This document shows positions 9,535 through 36,125 of a stretch of DNA of 64,000 nt, piece after piece. Within the stretch, counting starts at the first letter, position 1, and each line of letters begins with the position of its first letter. Origin of the DNA: Bacteroidota bacterium (GTDB lineage Bacteria; Bacteroidota; Ignavibacteria; Tepidaquicellales; Tepidaquicellaceae). The notes under the pieces were generated by a model. That model saw only the letters and a program-made list of their open reading frames with translations. It did no database searches and was not told the origin of the DNA. The stretch covers positions 696,419 to 760,418 of the forward strand of contig JAFDZP010000002.1 in assembly GCA_018266835.1 (NCBI GenBank). The letters are read 5' to 3'. The position numbers and the translations under genes were made by a program.

Positions 9535-9543
9535 TATAATTTA

Positions 9544-11940: not shown

Positions 11941-13221
11941 TCAAGCTTGCTCAAGATTTTCAACAAGCTTACCTTGCGATCTTAATAAAGGAACTCGTCT
12001 TCGGATTGGTTCTTTAGCCCAGAAAGTATGATTATCAAATCTTACCAAGAACATAAAGCATAAAGCCATAAAGAACGGTTTTTGGAAAAGACCTTGAGAG
12101 TAGCCAAGTACCAGCATTCCCGCTAATATAGCAAATGGAAAGAGTGTATTAAATTTATGTTTTCTGCAGTAAGCTCTGTACGATAAAAACATCATCAAAA
12201 AATAATATGAAAATCCGACTAATCCAAACTCAGCCAATAACAGTGTCGTTCCGTTATTACCTGTATTTTCTTCATCACTAACCTGAAAAAATCTTCCTAT
12301 ACCAAAAATTGGAGAAGAAAAAAAGTTGTTCAGATTAATTTGACCACTGACAATCCTGGAGTAAACTTTCTCCGTACCGGCTTTTTTGGAATCCGAATAC
12401 ATTTTATTTACCTTTTCCTCCATGAAATCCAGTCTTGAATATAGATTAAGGAAGATAAAAATAAGTAACGGCATTAGTATAAAAGAATAAATGCTTCTAT
12501 ATGAAATAAGAATGTAGATACAAATAAAAATAAAGAAAGCAAGGTAAGCGGTAGTAGATTGAGTTGTCAGAATAGCAATAAGGAAAATAATATTTTTCTT
12601 ATTGAAGAATTTTTTATTTCTTACAATGTTAAAAGTCAGAGCGATGAATAAAAAAACAGAGAATCCGCCCGGTTCCCAAAATGGTCCCGAATTTCTCGGT
12701 ATCTCAACCTTCCATCCAAGCTCCATAGTATAGATAATAAAATGCTGACGATTAGGTTGAAAAATTGTAATTTTATCAAACCAGGGAGTAATGTTTGCAA
12801 AAATATAATCTGCTAAGCCGGGATTTGCAAAAATCAATCCTGTTACAATTAAGCTGATAACCGAGAAGAAATATATTTGATTTACAATGTACCTGTCGAT
12901 CTGGCTTCCTATAATTTTTACAGTGAAATAAGCAAAATAAATTCGCATGAAATATGCGACAATGATGCTCAATATAAATTTATCATAGGCCAGAACATGA
13001 AGCCCGAATAAAGCAAGGAAGACAAGATTGTAAGAAACGATAACACGATCAAATCTTTTCCCCTTCCCAATGAAAATTAACATTGATAAGAAAAAGCCGA
13101 CAATTAAATACTCATTACCGAACAATATGGGCATGGAAGACACACCCATTAAAAGATATAACAGAAAATGGTTTAAAAAAGAATTCTCAGTTTTTTTCTG
13201 TAGTAAGAGATTATTCTGCAT
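11941..13221 (-). CDS. Wzy/WaaL-like O-antigen polymerase, copy B
   Basis: This 426-residue integral membrane protein has roughly ten hydrophobic helices and one large loop holding PNRQHFIIYTMELGW and RNSGPFWEPGGFS, as expected of O-antigen polymerase/ligase-type proteins. The later GNNGTTLLLAEFGLVGFSYY segment also fits this class. It is closely similar along its whole length to the gene just upstream (13211-14494), and the two overlap by 11 nt. Both copies look intact. In a Wzx/Wzy pathway one polymerase is usual, so the second could be a ligase or make a second linkage. Which copy does what cannot be decided from sequence. Confidence 0.82.
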   Translation of the reverse strand: MQNNLLLQKKTENSFLNHFLLYLLMGVSSMPILFGNEYLIVGFFLSMLIFIGKGKRFDRVIVSYNLVFLALFGLHVLAYDKFILSIIVAYFMRIYFAYFTVKIIGSQIDRYIVNQIYFFSVISLIVTGLIFANPGLADYIFANITPWFDKITIFQPNRQHFIIYTMELGWKVEIPRNSGPFWEPGGFSVFLFIALTFNIVRNKKFFNKKNIIFLIAILTTQSTTAYLAFFIFICIYILISYRSIYSFILMPLLIFIFLNLYSRLDFMEEKVNKMYSDSKKAGTEKVYSRIVSGQINLNNFFSSPIFGIGRFFQVSDEENTGNNGTTLLLAEFGLVGFSYYFLMMFLSYRAYCRKHKFNTLFPFAILAGMLVLGYSQGLFQKPFFMALCFMFLVRFDNHTFWAKEPIRRRVPLLRSQGKLVENLEQA

Positions 13222-14494
13222 CTAGAGCTAAACTTGTTTTTGATTTCAAAATATTATTTCTCATTCTTGAATTACTATTCAGAATATTTTTGTATTCAAA
13301 GTTTAAATGAGGTTTAAAATTAATCAAGTACATGAATGAAAGTCCGATAAAAAAAGGTTTTTGGAAAATTCCTTGGGAATAGCCAAGTATTAAAATAGAA
13401 ATAATTATTACAAAAGGATACTTATTGTTAAAATTCAAAGCCTTACAGTAATTTTTGTAAGAAGCATACATGCAAATCATATAATAACTGAATCCCACAA
13501 TTCCAAACTCTGCAAGAAGCAGAGTTGTTCCGTTGTTCCCGGTGTTTTCTTCATCTTCAATTTGAAAGAACCTGCCGATACCAAATATAGGAGAGGAAAG
13601 GAAATTACTGAAATTAATATTTCCGCTTACAATTCGTGAGTTTACTCTTTCTTTATAAGCAATTTGTGATTCAGAGTACATTTTTTCTACTTTACCTTCC
13701 ATAAAATCCAGTTTTGAGTAGAGGTTAAAAAACACAATAACTAAAATTGGAAGTACTACTGCAGAATATATTAACTTGTAGCGAATAACAATAAATAAAA
13801 TTACAAATACGAATAAAGCCAGATATGCTGAAGTTGACTGCGTTGTAATAATTGACAGAAAAAAAATAATATTCTTTAAATTTACAATTTTCTTGTGGCG
13901 CGCTATATTAAAAAAAAGTGCTACAAAAAGAAAAATCGCAAACCCTCCCGGTTCCCAGAAGGGTCCGGAGTTTCGTGGTATATCCAGCTTCCAACCCAAC
14001 TCCATTGTATAAATTATAAAATGCTGTCTATTAGGATGGAAATAAGTAAGTCTATCAAAAAAAGGAGTGATTTCCGAATTTACAAAATCAATTAACTGAG
14101 GGAATAAATAAAATAAAAAAGTAATGATGAGACTTATAATAGCAAAAAAATAAATCTGATTTATAATGTATCTGTCTGAATTTTTCCCGACAATTTTTAT
14201 TATAAAATATGCCAGAAATATCCTCAGGAAATACGCTATAAAAATTGAATATATAAACTGATTATAAACAAATATGTGTACGAAGAACAAACCAAGGAAG
14301 GCCAAAGAATAACTTATAATAAACGAGTCTATCTTTAAACCCTTCAGAAAAAAAATTACGAGAGCTAAAAAAAAACTTATAATTAAAAAAGGATTCCCGA
14401 TCAAAATAGGAATTGAAGAAATTCCCATCAGCAAGAAAATCATGAAGTGATTTAGAAATGCTGATTCCCTGGGAGCAGAATATAAATTGAACAT
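13211..14494 (-). CDS. Wzy/WaaL-like O-antigen polymerase, copy A
   Basis: This 427-residue polytopic membrane protein shares with its downstream neighbour nearly the whole pattern: AYFLRIFLAYF, DRYIINQIYFF, PNRQHFIIYTMELGW, RNSGPFWEPGGF, SRIVSG and GNNGTTLLLAEFG. By eye more than half of the residues are identical, and the insert positions match, so the pair arose by tandem duplication followed by substantial divergence. The role is polymerisation of lipid-linked repeat units on the periplasmic side, or ligation. The start codon lies 7 nt after the stop of the upstream GT-like gene. Confidence 0.82.
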   Translation of the reverse strand: MFNLYSAPRESAFLNHFMIFLLMGISSIPILIGNPFLIISFFLALVIFFLKGLKIDSFIISYSLAFLGLFFVHIFVYNQFIYSIFIAYFLRIFLAYFIIKIVGKNSDRYIINQIYFFAIISLIITFLFYLFPQLIDFVNSEITPFFDRLTYFHPNRQHFIIYTMELGWKLDIPRNSGPFWEPGGFAIFLFVALFFNIARHKKIVNLKNIIFFLSIITTQSTSAYLALFVFVILFIVIRYKLIYSAVVLPILVIVFFNLYSKLDFMEGKVEKMYSESQIAYKERVNSRIVSGNINFSNFLSSPIFGIGRFFQIEDEENTGNNGTTLLLAEFGIVGFSYYMICMYASYKNYCKALNFNNKYPFVIIISILILGYSQGIFQKPFFIGLSFMYLINFKPHLNFEYKNILNSNSRMRNNILKSKTSLALDAE

Positions 14495-17146: not shown

Positions 17147-18226
17147 TTATGAGATGTGCAGTCTTTCAACAGCTTTTTTGTATTCAGTCCATTCGCCGGT
17201 ATCTATCCAGGAATTTTCGCTGATAGGATAAACACCAACCTTACCTCCGTTATTTTTAATTGCCTCAATAAAATCTGTCATATCAAAATATTTATCTTCA
17301 GGTATAAAATTTATTGTGTCAGGATTAATAACATACATTCCTGTATTTACAAGATAATCATATTCGGGCTTCTCATTAATTTTAGTTAGCTCACCGCCAT
17401 TTTCAATCTCGCAGATACCGTATGGAATTTTATATTTTTTAAATGATGCAGCAATAGTTAGATCAAATCCTTTGTTCTTATGAAATTCAACAAAGCTTGC
17501 ATAGTCACAGTCAATTATTATATCACAGTTAGTTATAAATATAGGTTCTGAGAATTTTTTATTTAATAGTTTCATACTCCCTGCCGTTCCCAGCGGTTTA
17601 TCTTCAACAACATACTCAACATTATACTCAGGAGCTAATTCCTCAAAATAAGATTTAATAATTTTAGCTTTATGATTAAGCGTCAAGTAAAAATTCCTTA
17701 TATCGTTTTCAATAAAAAATTTATCTATGATAATTTCAATTACTGCTTTTTCTCCTATGGGAATTAACGGTTTCGGAAGAATTCTGGTAAACGGATCTAA
17801 ACGGGAACCCTTCCCCCCCGCCATAATAACTACAGAATTAGTTAACTTTGTTTTGAAAGATTTATGTTCATGAAGGTCAAATATATTATTCCAGAAAAGT
17901 ATATCAATTATTCTTTTATCTTTATCAAGTACCGGTATAGCTGATATTCTTAAATCTAATATTACCTTTTTTATTTCTTCTATATCATAATTTTCATATG
18001 CAAATGTCGGATTTTTAAAGCACACTTTTTCTGCAGTTAAATCCATATTCCCTTCCGATAGAATCCATCTTCTGATGTCACCGTCAGAAATTGAACCATA
18101 TAAGCTTTCATTGTCATCGACTACAAATAAAATTCTTTCTCCTGCTTTATCAAGCATTGAGATAGCATCTTTTATTAAAACGTTTCTGTGTATTATAAAT
18201 TTCTTATTTTCTTCTCTCAAATTCAT
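17147..18226 (-). CDS. CBS-domain sugar-1-phosphate nucleotidyltransferase (PtmE-like)
   Basis: The 359-residue protein begins with a pair of CBS domains (about 1-115; SDGDIRRWIL and ISAIPVLDKDKRI). A nucleotidyltransferase domain follows, with the signature MAGGKGSRLDPFTRILPKPL near residue 131 and the metal-site segment NCDIII. In Campylobacter this fusion (PtmE) makes GDP-glucosamine at the start of the GDP-linked legionaminic acid route. The neighbouring nonulosonate genes support the same role, though the nucleotide specificity is not readable. CBS domains suggest regulation by adenine nucleotides. ATG 18226 was chosen over a TTG two codons earlier; it lies just after the upstream stop. 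Confidence 0.8.
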   Translation of the reverse strand: MNLREENKKFIIHRNVLIKDAISMLDKAGERILFVVDDNESLYGSISDGDIRRWILSEGNMDLTAEKVCFKNPTFAYENYDIEEIKKVILDLRISAIPVLDKDKRIIDILFWNNIFDLHEHKSFKTKLTNSVVIMAGGKGSRLDPFTRILPKPLIPIGEKAVIEIIIDKFFIENDIRNFYLTLNHKAKIIKSYFEELAPEYNVEYVVEDKPLGTAGSMKLLNKKFSEPIFITNCDIIIDCDYASFVEFHKNKGFDLTIAASFKKYKIPYGICEIENGGELTKINEKPEYDYLVNTGMYVINPDTINFIPEDKYFDMTDFIEAIKNNGGKVGVYPISENSWIDTGEWTEYKKAVERLHIS

Positions 18227-18228
18227 AT

Positions 18229-19383
18229 TCAAACATTAATATCATAAAACTTCTTTTTAGAAGAAATATTGTTTATATTTTTTTTAATTATTGTCAGCAT
18301 TTGTTTTGCCGCAGTTCCGTTGCCGTACGGACTTTTATTTGCTGATGAATTTCTTTTTATACTTATTGCTTTTTTTATTCCTGAAACTATATCCGCTGTT
18401 CCACACTTAACGCTTATAATACTTTCACTCATTATTCTGCCTTTCTGTCTATCGCCAATATTAATAGTCGGAATTCCCATAAAAGGAACTTCAACAATTC
18501 CGCTTGAAGAATTTCCAATGACTAAATCAACATTCTTTAAAGTTGAAAGATATCTTTTCTGTCCGAGATTCGTGAATGCGTAAGCATTATTTCTCTTTGC
18601 GACAAATTTATTAACCATCTCAATTATTTCTCTGCCGCCTGTATCGGAATTCGGCATTGTAAAGATTAATTTCATTTGAGGAAATTTTTCTAAAGCTGAT
18701 AGTACCTTTTCAAATTGTTTCTTTGGAGACTCTTTATCCAATGTAACAGGATGAAATGTTACTAAAGCAGTTTTGCTGTCAAATGTAAGATTTAAATCTT
18801 TTTCTAAATCCTTTTTTGAAATTAATTTCAGATTTTTAATATTGTCTAATCCTAAAGCTCCGACATTGTAAACCGATTTTGGATTTTCCCCCAGCTGAAT
18901 AATTCTTTTTTTATAAATTTCAGTGGCAGCAAAGTGAAGCGACGACATTTTTGTTATTGAGTGTCTGATACCTTCATCAAACGCACCCTCAGTTGTTTCT
19001 CCACCTGCAATGTGTGCAATCGGAATATTCATTAAGTATGCACTTGTAGCAAGCGCCATCATTTCGTATCTATCTCCGAGAATAACAAGTAAATCGGGCT
19101 TTAATCTGTTAAAAACATCCGATGCCGATATCATTGCAAGTCCCATTGCTTTTACAATTGCAGTATCTGTATCTGCTGAAAGCAGCATTTCAATTTTTTC
19201 AGTAACTTTGAATCCGTCTTTTTCAATTTCATTCACAGTCATTCCAAACTCAGGAGATAAGTGCATAGCAGTAGCAATAATCTGCAGTTCAAGATTTTTA
19301 TCTTTTTTAATAAGAGTCATTAACGGATTTAATAATCCGTACTCTGCTCTTGTACCCGTAGCTATGCAGATTTTGTTTTTCAC
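18229..19383 (-). CDS. Hydrolysing NDP-N-acetylsugar 2-epimerase (NeuC/LegG-like)
   Basis: This 384-residue protein of the NeuC family has IATGTRAEYGLLNPLM at the N-terminus, LLVILGDRYEMMA near residue 100, HIAGGETTEGAFDEGIRH and, near the C-terminus, VIGNSSSGIVEVPFMGIPTINIGDRQKGR. These enzymes invert C2 and release the nucleotide, giving the ManNAc-type sugar that NeuB condenses with phosphoenolpyruvate. The neighbouring PtmE-like and LegC-like genes favour a di-N-acylated bacillosamine substrate (LegG) over UDP-GlcNAc, an inference from context. The start is GTG at 19383, overlapping the neuB stop by 4 nt. Confidence 0.87.
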   Translation of the reverse strand: MKNKICIATGTRAEYGLLNPLMTLIKKDKNLELQIIATAMHLSPEFGMTVNEIEKDGFKVTEKIEMLLSADTDTAIVKAMGLAMISASDVFNRLKPDLLVILGDRYEMMALATSAYLMNIPIAHIAGGETTEGAFDEGIRHSITKMSSLHFAATEIYKKRIIQLGENPKSVYNVGALGLDNIKNLKLISKKDLEKDLNLTFDSKTALVTFHPVTLDKESPKKQFEKVLSALEKFPQMKLIFTMPNSDTGGREIIEMVNKFVAKRNNAYAFTNLGQKRYLSTLKNVDLVIGNSSSGIVEVPFMGIPTINIGDRQKGRIMSESIISVKCGTADIVSGIKKAISIKRNSSANKSPYGNGTAAKQMLTIIKKNINNISSKKKFYDINV

Positions 19384-20384
19384 AATTCTATAAATTCATC
19401 TTTAGAAAATTTTCTCTTCGCTTTTTTGCCAACAACTTCATTCCATCTCATAGGATTAATTCCGGAACCCGGTCTCTTCACAATCAAATTCTCATCAGTA
19501 AAAACTTCTCCCTCTTCTATATCATGCGCAGCTAAAATACTTTTGCGGGCTATTACTATATTTTTTTCTTCAGATGCTGCAATTTGTTTATCGCCGTCTC
19601 CCATTGCTAAATCAACATTACGGATGCATCGAACCATTTCTGCCAGCTCATAGGGTTCTAACGAAGCAAGATGGTCGGGACCTTCCATAGTTTTATCTAG
19701 TGTAAAATGTTTTTCCACGACAGTTGCTCCAATAGCCGCTGCAGCAATTGAAACTTCAATCCCTTTTGTATGGTCAGAATATCCGACATTAACATTAAAT
19801 GTATCTTTCAATGTAAGCATAGCTTTTAAATTAACATCTTCAAGCGGTGTAGGATATTCAGTTGTGCAATGAAGCAGTGTGATTTTTTCTTTATCAGTTC
19901 CTGATGCAACAATTAAATTCAAACACTCTTCAACATCATTTAGAGTAGACATGCCTGTTGAAATTATAACATTCATATTCTGTTCGCCGATTCTTTTCAG
20001 ATATGGATAATTTGTAATTTCTCCGGAAGGAATTTTCATATAAGGCATATTAAAGCTAAGCAAAAGCTCTAAGGATTTCATATCGAACGGAGTGGATAAA
20101 AACATAATATTGTTTTTTTCACAGTACTCTTTAAGCTCTTTGTATGCTTCCAGCGGTAAATGAATTTTTTTCGCCATCGCTATCTGCGAACCTGCTTCAC
20201 CTGTATTGGTAATCTGATATTCTGCCTTCGTTGCATATTCAGTCATAACAAGTTCAGGAACTGCTGTCTGAAATTTCACTGCATCTGCCCCTGCTTTAAC
20301 TGCTTCATTAATTAGTTTGTAAGCAAGCTTAATATTCCCGTTGTGATTTACTCCTGCCTCTGCTATTATAAAGGTTCTCTTCAT
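19380..20384 (-). CDS. Nonulosonic acid synthase (NeuB/LegI-like)
   Basis: This 334-residue protein has the NeuB TIM-barrel opening FIIAEAGVNHNG, then AVKFQTA, MKIPSGE and TLLHCTTEYPTP. DHTKGIEVSIAAAAIGATVVEKHFTLD follows, and from about residue 275 a C-terminal SAF (antifreeze-like) domain with VKRPGSGINP. It condenses a ManNAc-type hexose with phosphoenolpyruvate to form a nine-carbon nonulosonic acid. The neighbours point to a legionaminic-type product rather than sialic acid. The gene overlaps both neighbours by 4 nt, a tightly coupled set with the 2-epimerase and the HAD protein. Confidence 0.9.
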   Translation of the reverse strand: MKRTFIIAEAGVNHNGNIKLAYKLINEAVKAGADAVKFQTAVPELVMTEYATKAEYQITNTGEAGSQIAMAKKIHLPLEAYKELKEYCEKNNIMFLSTPFDMKSLELLLSFNMPYMKIPSGEITNYPYLKRIGEQNMNVIISTGMSTLNDVEECLNLIVASGTDKEKITLLHCTTEYPTPLEDVNLKAMLTLKDTFNVNVGYSDHTKGIEVSIAAAAIGATVVEKHFTLDKTMEGPDHLASLEPYELAEMVRCIRNVDLAMGDGDKQIAASEEKNIVIARKSILAAHDIEEGEVFTDENLIVKRPGSGINPMRWNEVVGKKAKRKFSKDEFIEL

Positions 20385-21016
20385 TGTTCTGCTATATCAA
20401 GGATTTCGTATAATTTTTTGTACTCTGTATTAAATAAAAACTTGATCCCAAGTTTTTCACAAACTCCGTCTTTTTCAATCGAATCACCTATATAAATCAT
20501 TTCTTCCGGCTTTATGTTGAAATCATTCAGTACCGTTTCAAATATCTTTAAATCAGGCTTTCTCATCGGGGGATTGAACTCATCAGAAATATAAATCTTA
20601 TCGACTACAGATAAAAGATTCAAAACCTGAATTTTGTTTTTCTGGATTGTAACTCCTCCATTTGTAATCAGAATAATTTTGTAACCTTTGTTTCTGATTT
20701 TTTGCAGAACAGGTTTTACCCACTCAAAAGTCTTCAGGGTAAAATCAGGCTTATGATTTCTGTAAAAAGGAAGAATCTTATCTTTTACAAAATCATCCCA
20801 TGTATTTGGTAGTTCATATCCGCTGTTAACTACTGCCTTATCAAACAATCTGTCAAAATCTTTTACATCAAATAGCTTCTGCATTTCTGCAAAAACTTTT
20901 TCTTTATCAAATCCGAATTTATATTCTACCGATTTTGCAATCGATTCAAAAAGAATTTTTTCATAATCCCATTGAGAATATAAAGTGTCATCTAAATCAA
21001 ACCCTATAACTTTCAA
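20381..21016 (-). CDS. HAD-superfamily phosphatase (subfamily I)
   Basis: The 211-residue protein has the HAD motifs FDLDDTLYS (nucleophile Asp7, acid Asp9), ITNGG in motif II, the conserved Lys in RKPDLKIF and YIGDSIEKD in motif IV. A helical cap lies between motifs I and II. HAD phosphatases in nonulosonate clusters may remove the 9-phosphate when a phosphorylated route is used, or act on an intermediate specific to this glycan. The immediate neighbours are NeuB and an ATP-grasp protein. The start is a TTG at 21016 overlapping the ATP-grasp stop. Substrate unknown. Confidence 0.8.
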   Translation of the reverse strand: MKVIGFDLDDTLYSQWDYEKILFESIAKSVEYKFGFDKEKVFAEMQKLFDVKDFDRLFDKAVVNSGYELPNTWDDFVKDKILPFYRNHKPDFTLKTFEWVKPVLQKIRNKGYKIILITNGGVTIQKNKIQVLNLLSVVDKIYISDEFNPPMRKPDLKIFETVLNDFNIKPEEMIYIGDSIEKDGVCEKLGIKFLFNTEYKKLYEILDIAEQ

Positions 21017-21999
21017 ATCAGATCCAGTAATTTATCAGTGTAAACTGCATTATCGTACCTTAAAACGTAAAAACCGGTTTTATATCTTATGCCGTTTATC
21101 TTTTCAAATGGAGTATTTTCAACATAATTTTTTATATGCTGAATCATATTTGCCCCTGCAGTATGTGATAAAGGATATCCGCCGCCGAATCGTGGATTTA
21201 TTTCTCCGAGGTAAACCTTATCCTTTTCAATCATAACCTGTATATTTACCATTCCCTCAATTTTCAATTCACTTACAACTTTCTTGATCACATCTGCAAC
21301 TTCGGGAATATTTACTGTCACTCCTTTTTCAACTTCTCCGCCTCTCGTACTGATTCTTTTTCTCTGACAATACTCTACTACATTTCCCTGACCGTCACCA
21401 TAAACATCAACTGTAATTTCTTCAGAAAAATTTATATACTGCTGAACAATATATGAATCCGAATCTAATTTTTTAGTATCAGCTATGGATTTTACCTCAT
21501 CAGGCGAAGCAAAATAAATTCCTTTAGAAGCAGAACCTGCCGAAGGCTTAAGAATTAATTTTTCGTGATTAGTGTCAGCAGCTTTTAAAAGATAATCTTT
21601 CAACAGCCATGTTTCGGGCTGTAATATATCTGTGTCTCTGAATCTTAAAAAGGTTTGATACTTATCGTTGGATAACTTAACAACTTCGTAGTCAGGTACA
21701 CAGACATGAACTCCAATCTCATTAAATTTTTTCTTGTGTTTTGCAAACAATGGAAGCTCGGGATCAATTAACGGAAGTACAATCTGAGGCTTCTCTTTTT
21801 TACAAATTTCTAAAACATCATCTAAATATTTTTCATCTATTTTAAGCGGCACTTCATGAACTCTATCCAGAATATAGGCTGCCGGAGAAGTTTTAAATGC
21901 ATCTGCGCCGATGAATTCATAACCTGAAAATTCTTTTTTAAAAAAACTTATCAGTTCAAATCTTCTTCCGGGAGATGTAAATAAAATTTTCTTTGTCAA
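21013..21999 (-). CDS. ATP-grasp ligase (carbamoyl-phosphate-synthase-like)
   Basis: The 328-residue protein has an N-terminal Rossmann-like part (ILFTSPGRRFELI) and a central ATP-grasp domain. The latter shows LILKPSAGSASKGIYFA in the ATP loop, DSYIVQQYINFSEEITVDVY, and the metal-binding segment VYLGEINPRFGGGYPLS. The family joins a carboxylate to an amine or thiol through an acyl-phosphate. Homologues occur in surface-polysaccharide loci without firm assignment. Lying between NeuB/HAD and the WbpG amidine module, it could attach an amino acid or other acyl group to the amino-sugar, a role otherwise lacking an enzyme here. The start is TTG 21999. Confidence 0.8.
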   Translation of the reverse strand: MTKKILFTSPGRRFELISFFKKEFSGYEFIGADAFKTSPAAYILDRVHEVPLKIDEKYLDDVLEICKKEKPQIVLPLIDPELPLFAKHKKKFNEIGVHVCVPDYEVVKLSNDKYQTFLRFRDTDILQPETWLLKDYLLKAADTNHEKLILKPSAGSASKGIYFASPDEVKSIADTKKLDSDSYIVQQYINFSEEITVDVYGDGQGNVVEYCQRKRISTRGGEVEKGVTVNIPEVADVIKKVVSELKIEGMVNIQVMIEKDKVYLGEINPRFGGGYPLSHTAGANMIQHIKNYVENTPFEKINGIRYKTGFYVLRYDNAVYTDKLLDLI

Positions 22000-22006
22000 A
22001 ACTTTA

Positions 22007-23236
22007 TTAATCGTCTAAACCTGTTTTGTTAACAGTGTGTCTTAGTTTCCAGTTACCGTCAGAATCTTTTCCCCATAAATGCGGTGAGCGGAATTTATCT
22101 GCAAGTTCAAAAAATCTTTCTTCAGTCATTCCAATATGCTCCATAATTTCTTTGAAATATCTGTCCGGGAACTCACCGTCAAATTTTCTTACCAGAGCAA
22201 GACCTTCTTCTCTTGTTAGATGCTTGTTTCTGATTTCCTGCGATGCATCATAGGTAGTTCTGCCTATTCCGAATTTAATAAACGTTGTATAATAATGTAA
22301 ATCGTCAATCTTATCATCTATGCTGTTATATTTTGAATATGTTCCTTGTGTTCTGAAAGGGCGCGCTTTAAATCCTGTATGCTCTACTGCATGATAATAA
22401 ACTTCCTGTGGCACCCATTTCAGATAGTATCCAAGATAATGAACTTCTATTTTTGATTTTTCAAGCTGGTCATGATCTGCCGGTAAAAACGTCATAAGGT
22501 CTGCAAGCTTCACATCATATTTTTCCATTAACTCTTCAATCGATACTCCTGCAAGATACATATCTTTTAAATGAGTCATGCTGAAGTAAGATTTATCTCT
22601 TAAAGATGTTGCATCGTCGGCAATAGGGTTTCCGTACTCAGCTTCATTCTCACCGTAAAAAATAAGAGGTATATCATAATTGATTGCAATTTTAGGTGCG
22701 AGATTTTTTTGTCCTAATATAAACGTCTGAAAAGGATGGAATAAATTTTCTATTGATAACCTTGTAAGCAGTTTCATAATCCTTCCGTTCTGCTTGAACA
22801 TAAGATTATCAAAACCGCCAACCTCTACCCAATTTTTCCAGTTCTGATATCCGTAATCTGTATATAAAATCGGAGGCCATGTTATAGTTAAAGGATTCAT
22901 TCCGTATTTATACTTTAGCATCCATGATTGATACGCACTGTCTTTTCCTCCGCTGCCGGGAACAATACAATCATACTTTCCGTCATTTCTTCTGTGCTTA
23001 TCAAGAAGCTTTAATAATTCCTGTTCTCTTTTTTCCCAATCTATAGTTTCCTTACCTTCATTAACTTTGCAAGCATCGCATATTCCGTCTTCGCCAATAT
23101 TCAAAGTTGTTTTCTTACTTTGTATTGTGTGCTTAAATTCAGGAGTTGAAGCCGGACGCTGATTTGACATAACGCACTTCTTACAGAACTTCACTTCTTC
23201 AGGTAATCCATAATAAGCTTCTAATTTCTTACTCAT
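22007..23236 (-). CDS. N-acetyl sugar amidotransferase (WbpG/PseA/PtmG-like)
   Basis: This 409-residue member of the WbpG family has the N-terminal CKKCVMSNQRP motif and a second Cys pair in CDACK, probably forming a metal site. The ATP-pyrophosphatase loop is VPGSGGKDSAYQ, near residue 94. The family, with ammonia supplied by a HisH-HisF pair, turns the N-acetyl group of a sugar into an acetamidino group; the same three genes occur together in Pseudomonas O-antigen and flagellin-glycan loci. hisH and hisF follow directly here. The likely substrate is the legionaminic-type sugar or its CMP form. Confidence 0.88.
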   Translation of the reverse strand: MSKKLEAYYGLPEEVKFCKKCVMSNQRPASTPEFKHTIQSKKTTLNIGEDGICDACKVNEGKETIDWEKREQELLKLLDKHRRNDGKYDCIVPGSGGKDSAYQSWMLKYKYGMNPLTITWPPILYTDYGYQNWKNWVEVGGFDNLMFKQNGRIMKLLTRLSIENLFHPFQTFILGQKNLAPKIAINYDIPLIFYGENEAEYGNPIADDATSLRDKSYFSMTHLKDMYLAGVSIEELMEKYDVKLADLMTFLPADHDQLEKSKIEVHYLGYYLKWVPQEVYYHAVEHTGFKARPFRTQGTYSKYNSIDDKIDDLHYYTTFIKFGIGRTTYDASQEIRNKHLTREEGLALVRKFDGEFPDRYFKEIMEHIGMTEERFFELADKFRSPHLWGKDSDGNWKLRHTVNKTGLDD

Positions 23237-23247
23237 TAAATTATAAT

Positions 23248-23928
23248 TTAAATTTTTTCTTTATGATTCTTAATTTCAGAACTCCAGTTCTGATAAATTT
23301 TTATTCCTTCCGTTCCGCTTTTTTCAGGATGAAACTGAAACGCGGTGATGTTTCCTTTTTTCACTCCGGAGCAATATTCAATTCCTTCGTAATTAGTCAG
23401 TGTCAGAATATCCTTTTCATTTTTTGGTTTCACGTAATAGGAATGAACAAAATACATAAACTCTTTTGATGAAGTGTCTTTCAGAATAGAATCACTCCAA
23501 TGATTTTCATTTTTAGGTTCATATATGTGGTTCCATCCAATCTGAGGAACCTTCATAGTTTTTCCATCAGAAGTTGTATTTGGAAACTTTACAACATTTC
23601 CTTCAACTAAATCTAATCCTTTATAATATCCAAACTCTTCGCTTTCCGTAAATAATAACTGTAATCCTAGACATATACCAAGGAATGGTTTTCCTGACGA
23701 AACAAAATCTTTTATTGGTGAAACTAAATCGAGCCTGTTTAAATTATCCATACAATTACCAAAGGCACCGACACCGGGTAATATTGCAGCATCGGAATTC
23801 ATTATAACATTTTTATCTTTTGTAATAATTGAATTCAAACCAACATACTTGCATGCATGGTCAACACTGAACATGTTCCCCATTTCATAATCTATAATTG
23901 CTACCTGAAATTTTTTATCTTCACTCAT
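23248..23928 (-). CDS. hisH: HisH-type glutamine amidotransferase subunit of the amidine module
   Basis: The 226-residue class I glutamine amidotransferase has the nucleophile in FLGICLGLQLLF and the His-Glu pair in FQFHPEKSG. The opening AIIDYEMGNMFSV and LPGVGAFG are HisH-like. It supplies ammonia from glutamine to its partner barrel HisF, which overlaps its 3' end by 4 nt. The gene order wbpG-hisH-hisF and the absence of other histidine genes indicate a role in sugar acetamidino formation rather than histidine synthesis. Confidence 0.87.
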   Translation of the reverse strand: MSEDKKFQVAIIDYEMGNMFSVDHACKYVGLNSIITKDKNVIMNSDAAILPGVGAFGNCMDNLNRLDLVSPIKDFVSSGKPFLGICLGLQLLFTESEEFGYYKGLDLVEGNVVKFPNTTSDGKTMKVPQIGWNHIYEPKNENHWSDSILKDTSSKEFMYFVHSYYVKPKNEKDILTLTNYEGIEYCSGVKKGNITAFQFHPEKSGTEGIKIYQNWSSEIKNHKEKI

Positions 23929-24776
23929 TGTGTGTACCTGCAGTCTATTCCGTTATCACTTAGATATTTTTTTATATCCTGAATTTCTGCTTTGTCAATT
24001 TTTCCGAATGTCTTACCGCTGTTTATAAATGTTACATTTCCTTCGGCGGAAAATTCATTAACTGATTTATTTTTGGCAGCATAATTATAATGAAGCATTG
24101 ATGCAACTGAAACTGCATCTGCATGTCCTTCTTGAATTACTTCTTTGAAATGTTCTAATTTCCCGGGACCGCCGTGAGCAATCACAGGGATTTTCACATT
24201 ATCAGAAATTTTTCTGGTTAGCTCCACATCAAATCCTTCGCCCGTACCTTCTTTGTCGACAGATGTAACTATCAATTCGCCCGCACCAAGTTCTTCTGCT
24301 CGCTGCGCCCATTCAAACGCATCAACCCCTGTGTATTCACGTGCGTTATCAGTGTAGCACAAATATTTTCCGTCGTTCTGTTTTATTGCTTCTATTGCAA
24401 TAACAATTGTAGAAGAACCGAACGCTTCGGATGCCTGCTTTATTATTTCAGGATTTTTTATTGCAGCTGTATTCAACGAAACTTTATCTGCGCCGTATCT
24501 TAATACTTCAGTTATATCTTCTATGGTTCTTAATCCGCCGCCGACTGTTAAAGGAATAAATATTTCCTTCGCTGTTCTTGTAATAATATCTTTCAGGCTA
24601 TTCCTGTCATACAAACTTGCAACAACATCCATATACAATAATTCATCTGCGCCGCTTTCGTTATAATATGATGCAAAATCTTCAGGTTTACCCATAACTC
24701 GCAAACCTTCAAGGTGAATTCCTTTTACTAAGTTCGGACCTTTTATATCAAGTCTTGCTATTATTCTATGGTTCAC
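23925..24776 (-). CDS. hisF: HisF-type cyclase/ammonia-channel subunit of the amidine module
   Basis: The 283-residue beta-alpha barrel is HisF-like: IIARLDIKGPNLVKGIHLEGL at the start, FIPLTVGGGLR, GADKVSLNTAAI, VTSVDKEGTGEG and VIAHGGPG. The first catalytic Asp (LDI) is present. The second acidic residue, Asp in the AID motif of histidine-pathway HisF (Asp130 in Thermotoga), reads Glu here (IVIAIEAIK). The change fits a protein kept mainly to pass ammonia from HisH to WbpG. It is also longer than the ~250 residues usual for HisF. The start is GTG 24776. Confidence 0.87.
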   Translation of the reverse strand: MNHRIIARLDIKGPNLVKGIHLEGLRVMGKPEDFASYYNESGADELLYMDVVASLYDRNSLKDIITRTAKEIFIPLTVGGGLRTIEDITEVLRYGADKVSLNTAAIKNPEIIKQASEAFGSSTIVIAIEAIKQNDGKYLCYTDNAREYTGVDAFEWAQRAEELGAGELIVTSVDKEGTGEGFDVELTRKISDNVKIPVIAHGGPGKLEHFKEVIQEGHADAVSVASMLHYNYAAKNKSVNEFSAEGNVTFINSGKTFGKIDKAEIQDIKKYLSDNGIDCRYTQ

Positions 24777-24782
24777 TTAAGG

Positions 24783-25487
24783 CTAAACTAATTTTTGTTT
24801 ATAATATAACTCGGCAATTTTCAAATCTACAGGTTCATCAATATCAACGGAAGAATAGTAAGGCATGATGTAACTTAAAGTCTTAGGAGTCTGAAAGGTT
24901 TTATATTTCTCAAAATTTTTTATATCAATTAAATATATAGCGCCGTTTATAAAGTATGTAATAGGTATATCCTGTCTTCTTTTCTCACTCTTCACATCAA
25001 ATAGATTTTCAATAAATCCCTTTTGATTAATCTTTCTGGATAAATATGGACTTTTAATGTTTTCTGTTACAGATATTAATGAAAGAGCTTCCTTGTTTGC
25101 TACAAACTTTTTGATTGAATTATCAATCTGTTCTGATTTTCTGAATGGTGATGTGGGCTGCAGAAGTAGCAAAGTATTATAATCATTGCCGCTCTTTTTC
25201 AGATAATCTATAAAATGCAGAATTACATCTGTGCTTGTAGCTTTATCTGATGCTAAATTTTTGGGTCTTTTAAAAGGGACTTCAACAGGAAATTTCTTGA
25301 CTGAATTTATTATCTCGTCTGAATCTGTTGATAAGAAAATTTTATCAATATATTTTGATTTCAGCGCGCTCTCAACCGTCCAGTGTATTAATGGCTTTCC
25401 GCAGAAATTTATAATATTCTTTCTCGGAATACCTTTTGAGCCTCCGCGGGCAGTTATTAACGCAGCTATTTTTTTGTTTTTGTACAG
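24783..25487 (-). CDS. CMP-nonulosonate cytidylyltransferase (NeuA/LegF-like), no ordinary start codon
   Basis: Reading minus from about 25469 gives IAALITARGGSKGIPRKN, FLSTDSDEI, RPKNLASDKATST and LLLLQPTSPFR, the full N-terminal CMP-sialate synthetase pattern. About 225 residues follow in one open frame to 24783. The enzyme activates the nonulosonic acid with CTP. The frame is open back to a TAG at 25506-25508, yet between that stop and IAALITARGG there is no ATG, GTG or TTG. The codon aligned with the usual Met is AAC or AAA. CTG at 25485-25487 is the best near-cognate start and was used here. A TTG at 25172 lies inside the catalytic domain and cannot be the real start. The upstream gene ends 31 nt away, so coupled reinitiation is possible. 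Confidence 0.8.
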   Translation of the reverse strand: MYKNKKIAALITARGGSKGIPRKNIINFCGKPLIHWTVESALKSKYIDKIFLSTDSDEIINSVKKFPVEVPFKRPKNLASDKATSTDVILHFIDYLKKSGNDYNTLLLLQPTSPFRKSEQIDNSIKKFVANKEALSLISVTENIKSPYLSRKINQKGFIENLFDVKSEKRRQDIPITYFINGAIYLIDIKNFEKYKTFQTPKTLSYIMPYYSSVDIDEPVDLKIAELYYKQKLV

Positions 25488-25518
25488 AGAGTACGGAAAT
25501 GAATTCTATGAAGATGAA

Positions 25519-26673
25519 CTATTTATTCTTTAGTGCTTGTATTACTGTATCGATGTTTTCGTCAGTCAGATTTACGCTGCAAGGGATATTAAGAGTTTCT
25601 TCCAGCATTTTGTAAGCATGTTCTATTTTATAAGAATAATTATTCTTGTAAGGTTTTTGTTCGTGATTTAAGAACCAAACGGGACGTGTCTGAATTTTCT
25701 GTTGCCCTAATTTTTCCATCAATTGTTCTCTGTCCATTCCATATACATTTTTGTCAATTCGCATTGCGTACATCCACAAATTATTATCAGCATGCGAAGG
25801 TGTGCAGTTAATTTTTAATCCTTCAATTTTGTCAATTTCGGATTTATACTTATTATAGTTTTTCTTTTTTATTTTTAAATATTCGGGAAGAACTTCCATC
25901 TGAGCAACTCCGATTGCAGCCAATACATTTGGTAATCTGTAATTATATCCTACTTCATGATGTACATACCTTACTTCATCATCTTTTGCCTGAGTTGTAA
26001 GATATTTCGCTTTCTCAGCTTTCTGTGAATCATTAGTAACTATCATTCCACCGCCGCCCGTTGTAATAATCTTATTTCCGTTGAAAGAAAAACAGCCCAT
26101 TTCACCGATGGTTCCTGTGAATTTATTTTTATTCTTTCCTTCTAAGTAATATGTCCCTAAACTTTCGGTTGCATCTTCGATAACTGCAATATTTCTTTCT
26201 TTGCATAACAAAACCAATTCATCCAGCATAATTGCGCTTCCGAAAACATGGACGGGAATAATTGCAGAAATTCTTTTACCTGAAATATTATTGTATGTGT
26301 ATCCGTTTTTATAGCTTGTCTGAGTTTTTATAAATTCAATTGTCTTCTCAATATCAATGTTGTAGAAATCATCACTGTCCATAAAAACCGGCTCGGCAAA
26401 AGCATACCTCACTGCATTTATGGGAGCTATGAAAGTTAATGTCGGCACAATTACTTCATCTCCCGGTTCAACACCACAAAGTAAGAGTGAAATGTGAATC
26501 GCTTCAGTACCGTTAACACATGCTATTGCAAATTCTGATTTCGTGAAGTCCCTTACCGTCTCTTCAAAAAGATTTACATATTTTCCTGCTGTTGAAACCC
26601 ATTCGGTATCAAGACATTCTTTTACGTACTTCCATTCATTGCCTTTAATGGAAGGAACTGATAATGGTATCAT
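25519..26673 (-). CDS. DegT-family sugar aminotransferase (LegC-like)
   Basis: The 384-residue PLP enzyme begins MIPLSVPSIKGNEWKYVKECLDT and continues with EWVSTAGKYV, NGTEAIHISLLLCGVEPGDEVIVPTLTFIAP and the PLP-lysine segment CFSFNGNKIITTGGGG. This N-terminal pattern is that of the LegC subgroup, which puts the 4-amino group on the 4-keto-6-deoxy nucleotide sugar of the legionaminic/bacillosamine route. The matching 4,6-dehydratase (LegB) is not in the window. The 3' end lies just before the neuA-like frame. Confidence 0.87.
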   Translation of the reverse strand: MIPLSVPSIKGNEWKYVKECLDTEWVSTAGKYVNLFEETVRDFTKSEFAIACVNGTEAIHISLLLCGVEPGDEVIVPTLTFIAPINAVRYAFAEPVFMDSDDFYNIDIEKTIEFIKTQTSYKNGYTYNNISGKRISAIIPVHVFGSAIMLDELVLLCKERNIAVIEDATESLGTYYLEGKNKNKFTGTIGEMGCFSFNGNKIITTGGGGMIVTNDSQKAEKAKYLTTQAKDDEVRYVHHEVGYNYRLPNVLAAIGVAQMEVLPEYLKIKKKNYNKYKSEIDKIEGLKINCTPSHADNNLWMYAMRIDKNVYGMDREQLMEKLGQQKIQTRPVWFLNHEQKPYKNNYSYKIEHAYKMLEETLNIPCSVNLTDENIDTVIQALKNK

Positions 26674-26706: not shown

Positions 26707-27678
26707 TCAGGTGTTCTGGTAAGCTTTTGAATACGGGTCTGCTAAAACTTTATTTTTTATTATAGAATTAACTTCTATGACTCCGTCTTTAAGGTGTTTT
26801 GTTATTTGAAATCCGAGTGTATTTTTTATCTTTGAAAAATCCACTCTGTAGTCTCTAGGGTCTTCATCTTTCTGAACGTATTTTACAATTGTTTCAGGAA
26901 TAACATTTATTATTTCATCGGCAATCATTTTCTTCTGATAGTTTTCATCTGTATCGCCTACTCCGAAAACATTCTGATTTACAAGTGAAGCATCACTTTC
27001 AATTACGAGTATCACTGCTCTTGCAAGATCTTCAACATGGCAGTACGGTCTCCAGAATTGTTCTCCGAAAATTACTAACTCTTTTCCTGATGCAGCATCG
27101 CGTGTAAATTCATTCACTGTCAAATCAAATCTCATTCTTGTTGATAATCCGTAAACAGTAGCAAACCTTAACGCCGTTGCCACGAATCCGTCACGCAATT
27201 TAGATTCAAGAAGATATTTTTCAAATTTCACTTTCAATTCAGCATACAATGAAACAGGATTCAATGCTGACTCTTCAGTTACAAAACTGTCACCTTCCAT
27301 CTTTCCGTAATTACTGCAAGTCGACGCAAAAACAAATCTTTTAACATTGCTGAGAGTATTGCATTTATCAAACAGAAGCTTTGAACCTTCCCAGTTAATA
27401 GAGCGTGCCTCATCTGCATACTTAGAGCATGCAGGATCACCCACGATTGCAGCTAAATGAGCTACAGCATCTGCTTCTTTTAATACTTCATCAAGTATTT
27501 TCTCATCACGTATATCGCCGTGAACAAAATTGAATTTTTTATTATTATAGAATGAAAGCATGGAGTCTCCTCCAAAGCTTAAATTGTCAAGCCCAATTAC
27601 GTCATACCCCTTATCTAATAAGAGTCTTGTTAGTGTAGAACCTATGTATCCGGCGCAGCCGGTAACTAATATTTTCAT
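26707..27678 (-). CDS. Extended SDR nucleotide-sugar epimerase/reductase
   Basis: The 323-residue extended SDR has the NAD-binding GCAGYIGSTL, HLAAIVGDPA, the Y-x3-K pair in SLYAELKVK and FWRPYCHVEDLARA in the C-terminal substrate domain. The catalytic Ser/Thr segment reads ASTCSNYG, without the Asp-Glu pair that follows this position in 4,6-dehydratases. It is therefore probably an epimerase or reductase and not the missing LegB. It overlaps wzc by one base. Its sugar is unknown; the position next to legC suggests the nonulosonate branch. Confidence 0.78.
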   Translation of the reverse strand: MKILVTGCAGYIGSTLTRLLLDKGYDVIGLDNLSFGGDSMLSFYNNKKFNFVHGDIRDEKILDEVLKEADAVAHLAAIVGDPACSKYADEARSINWEGSKLLFDKCNTLSNVKRFVFASTCSNYGKMEGDSFVTEESALNPVSLYAELKVKFEKYLLESKLRDGFVATALRFATVYGLSTRMRFDLTVNEFTRDAASGKELVIFGEQFWRPYCHVEDLARAVILVIESDASLVNQNVFGVGDTDENYQKKMIADEIINVIPETIVKYVQKDEDPRDYRVDFSKIKNTLGFQITKHLKDGVIEVNSIIKNKVLADPYSKAYQNT

Positions 27679-30887: not shown

Positions 30888-32084
30888 TTAAAAATGTTGT
30901 ATTACTCTATCTTTAATATAATCACCTATTGATAACGAAGATGTTGCTGCCGGTGAAGGCGCATTACAAACATTAAGCATCCGTTCGTTTTCTATAATCA
31001 AAAAATCGTCAATCAATTTTCCATCTTTGCTGCATGCCTGGGCTCGCACACCTGCTCCGCCTGCCTCTAAATCATCTTCTGTAATTTCCGGTATCAGCTG
31101 CTGAAGAGCGTGAGTAAAAGCTGATTTTGAAAACGAACGGTACATCTCACCCATTCCAGTTCTCCAGTATTTTACTGCAACTTTTAAAAATCCGGGATAA
31201 GTTAATGAAGAGAAAAGCTCTCCTAAATTTATTTGTGACTTTGTGTAGCCCTCTTTTGCAAATGCGAAAACTGCATTAGGACCTGCTTCAATTCCGCCTT
31301 CAATCATTCTGGTAAAGTGAACTCCTAAAAATGGGAATGCAGGATCGGGCACCGGGTAGATAAGATTCTTAACAAGATACTGTTTCTCTTTTTTAATCTT
31401 GTAATACTCACCTCTGAAAGGAATTATTTTAAAATTTGTCTCTGAGGAAGCAAATGAAGCAAGCTTATCGGAATACAATCCTCCGCACGATACAACATAG
31501 TTTGATTCATATTCATGTTTATCAGTTGTTACAATATTCTTAGCGTTTACTTTTTTTATATTCACAACTTTTTCGTTAAACTTTGCATCGCCGCCTTTAG
31601 CTTTTATCAGTTCCAGTAGTTTTTTCGATACCTGCTTATAATCTACAATTCCGGTTTGCGGTACTTGTATTCCTTTAATGCAGGTTACGTGAGGCTCTAT
31701 CTCGTTTACTTCTTCTTTTGTTAAATACTTTAAATTTTTAAGTCCGTTCTCATTTCCCCGTATAAAAATATTATCAAGCGCCGGCAGTTCTTTTTCATTT
31801 AATGCTACAATTACCTTTCCGCAAAGTTCATACTTTATTCCGTTAGCATCACAAAACTTTAATAGCTGGTTATATCCGTTAATACAATTAGATGCTTTTA
31901 AGCTTCCCGGCTTATAATAAATACCTGAGTGAATTACTCCGCTATTATTTCCGGTCTGATGCATTGCAACATCATTTTCTTTTTCAAGAATCAGAAGCTT
32001 AATATTTGGCTTAGCTAAAAGAATTTTATACGCTGATGCAAGTCCTACTATCCCTGCACCTATAACTATTACATCGTAGTTCAA
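30888..32084 (-). CDS. lhgO: L-2-hydroxyglutarate oxidase-like FAD enzyme (LhgO)
   Basis: The 398-residue flavoprotein begins with the FAD-binding VIVIGAGIVGLASAY and has the LhgO hallmark NNSGVIHSGIYYKPGSLKA near residue 47. VPQTGIVDYKQV, FRGEYYKI, the PDPAFPFLGVHFTRM stretch and GAGVRAQA near the end also fit. The family oxidises L-2-hydroxyglutarate to 2-oxoglutarate and passes electrons to the quinone pool. The start is a TTG at 32084, only 3 nt after the wbpB stop. WbpB enzymes reduce 2-oxoglutarate to 2-hydroxyglutarate to recycle their NAD, so this gene probably disposes of that by-product. Stereochemistry must match for that to hold. Confidence 0.87.
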   Translation of the reverse strand: MNYDVIVIGAGIVGLASAYKILLAKPNIKLLILEKENDVAMHQTGNNSGVIHSGIYYKPGSLKASNCINGYNQLLKFCDANGIKYELCGKVIVALNEKELPALDNIFIRGNENGLKNLKYLTKEEVNEIEPHVTCIKGIQVPQTGIVDYKQVSKKLLELIKAKGGDAKFNEKVVNIKKVNAKNIVTTDKHEYESNYVVSCGGLYSDKLASFASSETNFKIIPFRGEYYKIKKEKQYLVKNLIYPVPDPAFPFLGVHFTRMIEGGIEAGPNAVFAFAKEGYTKSQINLGELFSSLTYPGFLKVAVKYWRTGMGEMYRSFSKSAFTHALQQLIPEITEDDLEAGGAGVRAQACSKDGKLIDDFLIIENERMLNVCNAPSPAATSSLSIGDYIKDRVIQHF

Positions 32085-32087
32085 AAG

Positions 32088-33116
32088 TTATTCATTTTTA
32101 TCTTTCAGAGAATAAATTCTTTCAATAATATCAACCACTTTTAATCCTTCAAGTGCATTTGTTGTTATTGTATTCCTTCCTTTTATAACATCTATTACAT
32201 TTTCGAAAATATAATGATGATTAGCTGCAGAACCTTTATAGTCTCCGTAATCATTTGCAGGATTTACAGGACCTAACTTCGGCAATGTATAATTTTTAAT
32301 ATTACAATACTCGACTTCATTCATATACTGTCCTCCAATCTTCACACCTCCGTTACTTCCGATTACAGTAATACTGCTTTCCATATTGGTGTTCCAAACT
32401 GAAGTTGAATAATTAATGCATCCCATTCCTCCATTAATAAAATCAAAACTTACCATACCAGAGTCTTCGAAATCTGTCAGACCTGCGTGATTAAAATTAT
32501 TGAATTTTGCCTGAATATTTTTTATATCTCCGAACAACCAGTACATAATATCTATGAAGTGAGAAAACTGGGTAAACAAAGTACCACCGTCAAGCTCTTT
32601 AGTACCTTTCCAGTTTCCTTTTTTGTAGTAACGTTCGTCTCTGTTCCAGTAACAATTTAACTGAACCATATAAGTATCACCAAGAATTTTGTTTTCAACT
32701 ACTTCTTTTATCCATTGTGAAGGAGGAGAATATCTATTTTGCATTACGCAAAATACATGTCTTGATGCCTGTAAAGCCTTGAAAATAATTTTCTCGCAGT
32801 CAGCAACAGTCAGAGCCATTGGCTTTTCGCAAACAACGTGCTTTCCGCTTTCCAATGCTTTAAGTGAATGCTCTGCGTGCAGCCCGTTAGGAGTTGCAAC
32901 GCAAAGCACGTCAAACTTTATATTGGAATTCAGCATATCATCAATTGAAGAAAAGAATGGAACGTTGTAATTTTCAAGCCCCAGTTTTTCCTTCGGAAGA
33001 ATATCGCACATTGCAGCAAGCTCGGACTCATCATTTCTGTTTATCATTTCAGCATGTCTCTTGCCTATATGGCCCGAACCGACTACTGCAAATTTTACCT
33101 TCTCGTTACGCTGCAT
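32088..33116 (-). CDS. wbpB: UDP-GlcNAcA 3-dehydrogenase (WbpB/WlbA-like)
   Basis: The 342-residue Gfo/Idh/MocA oxidoreductase has the Rossmann opening KFAVVGSGHIGKRHAEMI and the family motif CEKPMALT near residue 97. KELDGGTLFTQFSHFIDIMYWLFG is in the substrate-binding half. With wbpA upstream and wbpD and wbpE in the same operon, it should oxidise C3 of UDP-GlcNAcA so that WbpE can add an amino group. Characterised members keep NAD bound and regenerate it with 2-oxoglutarate. It lies 8 nt after wbpA. Confidence 0.88.
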   Translation of the reverse strand: MQRNEKVKFAVVGSGHIGKRHAEMINRNDESELAAMCDILPKEKLGLENYNVPFFSSIDDMLNSNIKFDVLCVATPNGLHAEHSLKALESGKHVVCEKPMALTVADCEKIIFKALQASRHVFCVMQNRYSPPSQWIKEVVENKILGDTYMVQLNCYWNRDERYYKKGNWKGTKELDGGTLFTQFSHFIDIMYWLFGDIKNIQAKFNNFNHAGLTDFEDSGMVSFDFINGGMGCINYSTSVWNTNMESSITVIGSNGGVKIGGQYMNEVEYCNIKNYTLPKLGPVNPANDYGDYKGSAANHHYIFENVIDVIKGRNTITTNALEGLKVVDIIERIYSLKDKNE

Positions 33117-33124
33117 TTAAATTA

Positions 33125-34432: not shown

Positions 34433-34460
34433 TTTATACCTTCCTTTATGTTTGTGTGTT

Positions 34461-35384: not shown

Positions 35385-35521
35385 ACTGGGATTGTGTTAA
35401 AAGTTTTAAACAAGGCTCCGCCAATTACCTCCCATTTTCTTTTCAAAAAAATATAAGGTATCAGCGGGGAAATTCTTTTAAACCATAATACTGTAAATAA
35501 AAATTATTGTACTACTTCCTG

Positions 35522-36103: not shown

Positions 36104-36125
36104 GAAGAATCTGTTAGGGCTTTTC

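Follow-up and report, generated by a model that had tools for sequence, protein, structure and literature searches.

Among the closest described relatives of the system analyzed here is the guanosine diphosphate (GDP)-linked legionaminic acid pathway of Campylobacter jejuni (PtmE-LegB-LegC-LegH-LegG-LegI-LegF). Two further precedents bear on it. Cj1427, a GDP-D-glycero-D-manno-heptose C4-dehydrogenase (6vo6, 6vo8), oxidizes C4 of a GDP-sugar, and its bound NADH is reoxidized by alpha-ketoglutarate to give L-2-hydroxyglutarate (PMC10680097). Pyl of Bacillus cereus, associated with uridine diphosphate (UDP)-yelosamine, and PglB2 of Neisseria replace an acetyltransferase with an ATP-grasp enzyme that acylates an aminotransferase-made amine; PglB2 has an ATP-grasp where PglB has an acetyltransferase and yields a glyceramido sugar (PMC11130364). 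We analyzed a 64,000-nt stretch of a Bacteroidota genome (the window; C2:696419-760418, contig JAFDZP010000002.1 of assembly GCA_018266835.1; genome 4.0 Mb, 8 contigs, 99% complete). It carries an operon of the same neighborhood type as the C. jejuni pathway, sharing LegC, LegG, and LegI above their family cut-offs together with PtmE- and LegF-like genes, but here a Cj1427-like short-chain dehydrogenase/reductase (SDR) that lacks the acid/base Glu stands in for LegB, an ATP-grasp ligase plus a HAD phosphatase stand in for LegH, and the C9 hydroxyl is predicted to be kept. From gene content, family membership, catalytic-residue differences, the absence of LegB and LegH, and conserved synteny we infer, as on balance the better bet, that the operon follows a modified form of the GDP-linked legionaminic acid route to a cytidine monophosphate (CMP)-activated nonulosonic acid.

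Family calls were scored against the curated bit cut-offs of family models, and domains come from a separate domain scan (Table 1). The PtmE-, LegG-, LegI-, LegF-, and LegC-like genes that a first-pass annotation of this DNA had listed are all present, on the minus strand and in one operon, with frames intact except for the LegF start. The overlaps it had described between neuB, the HAD gene, and the ATP-grasp gene are 4 bp long (ATP-grasp/HAD and HAD/LegI), as are those of LegI with LegG and of LegG with PtmE; a single transcription unit is therefore likely, and a UpxY/NusG-like gene is probably its head. In the LegF frame (24783-25550), neither ATG nor GTG nor TTG occurs from the upstream stop to the conserved ARGGSKG motif, so that a CTG (before YKNKKIAALITARGG) or an ATA seems to be needed as the start. 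A cluster of like type (L036) carries a LegF 46% identical to this one.

The first-pass annotation had also held that both a 4,6-dehydratase and a PglD/LegH-type N-acetyltransferase are lacking. Across the whole genome the LegB model gives no match above its cut-off, the best (186.5 of 475 bits) being the TviC-like epimerase of the window, and the NeuD model gives only partial hexapeptide matches, none above cut-off (best 77.6 of 160.8). A LegB located beyond the window is thus ruled out. A second nonulosonic cluster (C7:19-29 kb; L029 9008-19080) was ruled out as the source of the missing enzymes, because it is of the pseudaminic type (PseB 508, PseC 466, and PseI 490 bits, all above cut-offs). 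Each claim holds for LegB and NeuD/LegH and needs a qualification: the dehydratase step appears to be replaced by the Cj1427-like SDR, not simply missing, and the operon does hold a hexapeptide N-acetyltransferase, in a WbpA-B-E-D set for another sugar.

The genome also encodes a PglF-like 4,6-dehydratase of 653 aa (C5:608971). This enzyme could supply a 4-keto-6-deoxy intermediate from UDP-N-acetylglucosamine (UDP-GlcNAc) for ordinary 9-deoxy legionaminic acid, with the SDR serving some other sugar. Bacillus subtilis offers a precedent, with precursors that are UDP-linked and a dehydratase that is not LegB (PMC7439481), and other dehydratase-like genes precede some LegC genes in the comparison loci (L142, L152, L161). 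We nevertheless consider this explanation unlikely. Besides its own GDP-type PtmE-like gene, the operon has an SDR immediately ahead of legC; SDR-LegC-LegI-LegG-PtmE blocks recur in several phyla; and the PglF-like gene could plausibly be partnered by a cluster on C7 that encodes a phosphoglycosyltransferase, an ATP-grasp, and a DegT aminotransferase.

The SDR gene lies 33 bases upstream of legC, the place of LegB in canonical clusters. Among PDB sequences the SDR matches Cj1427 best (201 bits; runner-up 94), and its AlphaFold2 model (predicted local distance difference test score, pLDDT, 93.7) likewise superimposes best on Cj1427 (6vo6/6vo8; Z 39.5, root-mean-square deviation 1.6-1.8 Å, 38-39% identity; next entry Z 36.8). 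The first-pass annotation correctly read STCS and SSSS at the catalytic position of the two operon SDRs (STCSNYG here, SSSSVYG in the TviC-like epimerase), both of which fall outside the interval it covered (17147-26673), within the same operon. When about 90 homologue rows were aligned with Cj1427 and five LegB sequences, STCSNYG was found in every SDR homologue at least 42% identical, NTNSGYG in Cj1427, and STSEVYG or STSETYG in the five LegB. The SDR keeps the YxxxK dyad and carries Ser at the position of the acid/base Glu of LegB. Its stretch RFATVYGLSTRMRFDL is Cj1427-like and unlike LegB, and RFATVYGLSTRMRFDLTV is also Cj1427-like; the SDR and Cj1427 have in common the lack of dehydratase residues and an RFATVYGxSxRMRFDL-type stretch. 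In GMD, an [ST]SE enzyme, the Glu acts as the catalytic acid, and the 4-epimerase GalE has no extra acid/base (PMC8987622, Table 1). Because no acid/base residue is present to expel the C6 hydroxyl, the SDR should not carry out 4,6-dehydration, and we predict that it is a GDP-sugar C4-dehydrogenase of the Cj1427 family, not a dehydratase. That the nucleotide would be GDP rather than UDP is suggested by the PtmE-like gene and the kinship with Cj1427. The two dehydrogenases differ in substrate and setting: Cj1427 acts on a heptose and adjoins a C3/C5-epimerase and a C4-reductase, whereas the window SDR is predicted to act on GDP-GlcNAc and adjoins LegC and a nonulosonate synthase.

An SDR without dehydratase residues might instead be a GalE-type C4-epimerase that converts GDP-GlcNAc to GDP-N-acetylgalactosamine with no net oxidation, and most of its other PDB matches are epimerases. 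We regard this as very unlikely, given that a dehydrogenase is by far its nearest relative and that the SDR is accompanied by a pyridoxal phosphate (PLP) aminotransferase, an enzyme that requires a ketone, and by an L-2-hydroxyglutarate oxidase (LhgO). In the window two genes, Wza-like and Wzc-like, separate LhgO from the SDR. Of 51 named loci, five (L034, L035, L037, L042, L054) have LhgO immediately upstream of the SDR, and the two genes are also neighbors in L097, L099, L102, L103, and L104. Four SDR-adjacent oxidases were scanned; three pass the cut-off of 299 bits (402, 408, and 481), and the fourth, at 298.9, is 0.1 short. The idea that LhgO receives its 2-hydroxyglutarate from WbpB, encoded in the same operon, was rejected, since WbpB makes the D form (PMC8651671); an L-specific oxidase therefore fits the SDR and not WbpB. 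We predict that LhgO recycles the L-2-hydroxyglutarate released by the SDR.

A scan of 84,980 species yielded 59 loci. In 39 of the 54 that were usable a DegT aminotransferase gene immediately follows the SDR, and in 44 it comes within two genes. SDR-LegC clusters without LegB recur in several phyla: the arrangement SDR-LegC-NeuD-LegI-LegG-PtmE-LegF occurs in a Bacteroidetes metagenome-assembled genome (MAG; L036/L208), in genome G100 (L204), in Pelagibacteraceae (L050, with LegF not adjacent to the rest of the cluster), and in Sphingobacteriales (L068), and Alteromonas (L046) has most of an SDR-LegC cluster, with NeuD not directly after LegC. Locus L215 repeats the gene order of L208 with LegB in the place of the SDR, and LegI and NeuD of the two loci are closely related. 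Among 40 genomes of the phylum with a LegC above cut-off, the SDR adjoins LegC in seven; LegB is found in none of these, compared with 15 of the 33 others (hypergeometric p about 0.03). The cluster is thus a real, widespread variant. Separately, a contig assigned to an Azovibrio restrictus MAG (L069) carries a typical Bacteroidetes-like SDR-LegC pair and is possibly misbinned.

The second replacement concerns the acyltransferase. The ATP-grasp protein has a complete fold with conserved Lys, Glu, Asn, and Arg (alignment of 16), and its model (pLDDT 89.5) has 2pn1 as best structural match; matches of the model to biotin carboxylase, PurK, and PylC reflect the fold only and were rejected as evidence of function. 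At 30 loci the gene after LegC encodes NeuD in 18 cases, a formyltransferase in four (PF00551 in the two tested), and an ATP-grasp in one (L202, ordered LegB-LegC-ATP-grasp-short HAD-LegI-LegG-PtmE-LegF), which argues that the acylation slot is filled by unrelated enzymes. Close relatives of the ATP-grasp (17 including that of the window, each above 370 bits to the family hidden Markov model) were compared in 4-kb loci. A HAD gene is adjacent in 16 of the 17, a phosphoglycosyltransferase is encoded in 11, and a DegT aminotransferase in eight. The pair lies between phosphoglycosyltransferase and DegT in the PglF-DegT-HAD-ATP-grasp-phosphoglycosyltransferase clusters L197, L214, L240, and L241, and in several bacillosamine-type clusters it occupies the place of PglD. 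Across genomes, then, the ATP-grasp/HAD pair is a recurrent neighbor of 4-aminotransferases where neither NeuD nor PglD is encoded. This synteny supports the proposal, first made in the earlier annotation, that an ATP-dependent ligase acylates the amine: the ATP-grasp would be the N-acylase of the 4-amine, paired with the HAD. Its published precedents are Pyl and PglB2, to which it is likened by role; the window enzyme differs from them in being stand-alone, in having a HAD partner, and in belonging to a nonulosonic acid operon.

The hexapeptide N-acetyltransferase of this operon, or another in the genome, could acetylate the 4-amine in its stead, leaving the ATP-grasp/HAD pair to act elsewhere, for example in amidation of a uronic acid; the second sugar of the operon is a predicted uronic acid that an ATP-grasp could amidate. 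This, too, appears improbable, as the acetyltransferase sits with WbpA, WbpB, and WbpE, whose product it should acylate, and the ATP-grasp/HAD pair overlaps neuB and has relatives beside 4-aminotransferases in clusters that lack NeuD and PglD. If the pair is the N-acylation module, the identity of the acyl group can be narrowed somewhat. The constant HAD partner suggests a phosphorylated donor or product, and our guess, by analogy, is 3-phosphoglycerate as donor, leaving a glyceroyl group. Within the same scheme, the ATP-grasp might add an amino acid or 2-oxoglutarate while the HAD acts on another phosphate ester. Pyl uses 2-oxoglutarate and the model resembles PylC, a joiner of amino acids, but the near-constant HAD partner speaks for phosphate on donor or product; we see this variant as a sizeable minority possibility. 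The amino acid named in the first-pass annotation is therefore possible, with glyceroyl and 2-oxoglutaryl better precedented.

Several comparison loci show other combinations around this step. Formyltransferase-like genes lie between LegC and LegI in L158, L161, L162, and L168, predicting N7-formyl legionaminic acids. NeuD, ATP-grasp/HAD, and a PIG-L-like deacetylase occur together in L056 (3997-10573), suggesting removal of an N-acetyl group and its replacement; PIG-L-like genes are also present in L050 and L205. The genome analyzed here has another possible site of ATP-grasp N-acylation (L203 4682-9352; C7:50.7-55.4 kb), where genes for a phosphoglycosyltransferase, a second PRK12767-like ATP-grasp, and DegT lie together.

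Between LegF and the ATP-grasp gene the operon encodes WbuX, HisH-like, and HisF-like proteins, a set that also follows LegF in L036 and L068 and is predicted to provide an acetamidino group. Such a group occurs in the legionaminic acid of Legionella. Compared with known WbuX/PseA-HisH-HisF systems, WbuX and HisH score above cut-off and the HisF-like protein slightly under both applicable cut-offs, and the predicted substrate is not 9-deoxy. In trees, the LegI of the window groups with that of the LegB-LegC-ATP-grasp cluster L202 (support 0.85-0.90). The active-site residues of LegI were discarded as a means of telling C6-OH from C6-H substrates, as they are alike in SDR- and LegB-type clusters. 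The position after FQT is V, C, I, and I in the four ATP-grasp-linked enzymes and, with few exceptions, K, N, R, or S elsewhere; that it tracks the acyl group is only suggestive, as three of the four enzymes group together in the tree.

Together, these genes could form the following pathway. PtmE, judged by family membership, would make GDP-GlcNAc, which the SDR would oxidize at C4 with its tightly bound NAD, passing the hydride to alpha-ketoglutarate without 4,6-dehydration; LhgO would return the resulting L-2-hydroxyglutarate to alpha-ketoglutarate. LegC is predicted to aminate C4. The ATP-grasp would then couple a carboxylic acid to the 4-amine and the HAD remove phosphate, the likeliest donor, speculatively, being 3-phosphoglycerate. 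LegG would take off GDP and invert C2, LegI would add phosphoenolpyruvate, LegF would activate the product with CMP, and WbuX-HisH-HisF would convert an acetamido group, probably that on C5, to acetamidino. The expected product is a 5-acetamidino-7-acylamino-3,5,7-trideoxy-nonulosonic acid that keeps its C9 hydroxyl. The retained C9 hydroxyl is the more unusual prediction, and the replaced dehydratase step is a larger departure from the C. jejuni route than the ATP-grasp; the first-pass annotation had overlooked this hydroxyl as well as the LhgO partner and the acetamidino set.

More tentatively, and stopping just short of calling it probable, we propose that the operon represents a further nonulosonic branch, in which LegB has given way to an alpha-ketoglutarate-driven C4-oxidase with L-2-hydroxyglutarate recycling, and which makes natural 7-amino-7-deoxyneuraminic acids with a C9 hydroxyl, here bearing a non-acetyl acyl group on N7, added by ATP-grasp/HAD, and an amidinated N5. 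Some observations weigh against parts of the pathway outlined above. Many SDR-DegT pairs occur in clusters without a nonulosonate synthase, where they probably make GDP-4-amino-4-deoxy sugars, so that the SDR is not specific to the pathway; LhgO is not adjacent to the SDR in L239; and LegI residues do not independently point to a C6-OH substrate. On the acylation side, the ATP-grasp of L202 is just 27% identical to that of the window and its HAD-like partner is short (104 aa), the replacement is not strict, given that NeuD and ATP-grasp/HAD coexist in L056, and phosphoglycerate is put forward as donor solely by analogy.

In a 2020 survey, the nonulosonic acids listed comprise tetradeoxy forms and neuraminic acids, along with a single trideoxy compound, which is 3,5,9-trideoxy (PMC7371886). 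Neu5Ac7NAc has so far been described, in the literature searched, as a synthetic, chemoenzymatically made mimic resistant to most sialidases (PMC9840695, PMC11356810). That literature, which did not extend to subscription papers and thus gives a limited negative, contained no description of a natural 5,7-diamino nonulosonic acid bearing a 9-hydroxyl. If the proposal is correct, nature makes sialic-acid-like sugars in which a 7-amino group and a 9-hydroxyl occur together, and the predicted route, present in several phyla, would at present be annotated as legionaminic acid biosynthesis and its product misnamed. It would also give L-2-hydroxyglutarate oxidase a physiological role in glycan biosynthesis and the common orphan ATP-grasp/HAD pair a testable function.

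Table 1. Genes of the operon, in window coordinates, with the family, domain, or motif evidence for each.
Feature	Position	Strand	Evidence
PtmE-like nucleotidyltransferase + CBS	17147-18232	(-)	NTP_transferase PF00483 + PF00571
LegG/NeuC hydrolysing NDP-sugar 2-epimerase	18229-19383	(-)	TIGR03568 491 bits, cut-off 236
LegI/NeuB nonulosonic acid synthase	19380-20384	(-)	TIGR03569 482 bits, cut-off 400
HAD phosphatase	20381-21016	(-)	HAD_2; DLDDT intact
ATP-grasp ligase	21013-21999	(-)	PRK12767-type 278 bits; PylC-like_N + ATP-grasp_3; best structure 2pn1
WbuX N-acetyl sugar amidotransferase	22007-23236	(-)	TIGR03573 354 bits, cut-off 203; 531 bits to PDB 8wex
HisH-like glutaminase subunit	23248-23928	(-)	TIGR01855 203 bits, cut-off 105
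HisF-like subunit	23925-24776	(-)	HisF 276 (cut-off 295), WbuZ 268 (cut-off 300); slightly under both
LegF/NeuA-like CMP-nonulosonate synthetase	24783 to ~25499	(-)	non-standard start; open frame KNKKIAALITARGGSKGIPRKNI...
LegC-family PLP aminotransferase	25519-26673	(-)	TIGR04181 471 bits, cut-off 420
SDR at LegB position	26707-27678	(-)	STCSNYG; best PDB match Cj1427
L-2-hydroxyglutarate oxidase (LhgO)	30888-32084	(-)	PRK11728 546 bits, cut-off 299
WbpB, UDP-sugar 6-dehydrogenase (WbpA), TviC-like epimerase, WbpD hexapeptide acetyltransferase, DegT (WbpE)	32088-37292	(-)	
TviC-like epimerase SDR	34461-35384	(-)	SSSSVYG
Hexapeptide N-acetyltransferase	35522-36103	(-)	within WbpA-B-E-D set
UpxY/NusG-like antiterminator	37292-37822	(-)	NF033644 139 bits, cut-off 100

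The WbpA-WbpB-WbpD-WbpE-like set with its TviC-like epimerase predicts 2,3-diacetamido-2,3-dideoxy-hexuronic acid as the second sugar. Other minus-strand genes of the window include WbjC- and WbjD-like genes of the L-FucNAc type (8386-10662); the genome is without FnlA/WbjB, and the intermediate may come from the PseB encoded on C7. Two adjacent, related polymerase-like membrane proteins of 426 and 427 aa (11941-14494) are an apparent tandem duplication, and a 755-aa open frame (3679-5946) consists of two similar glycosyltransferase halves in tandem.

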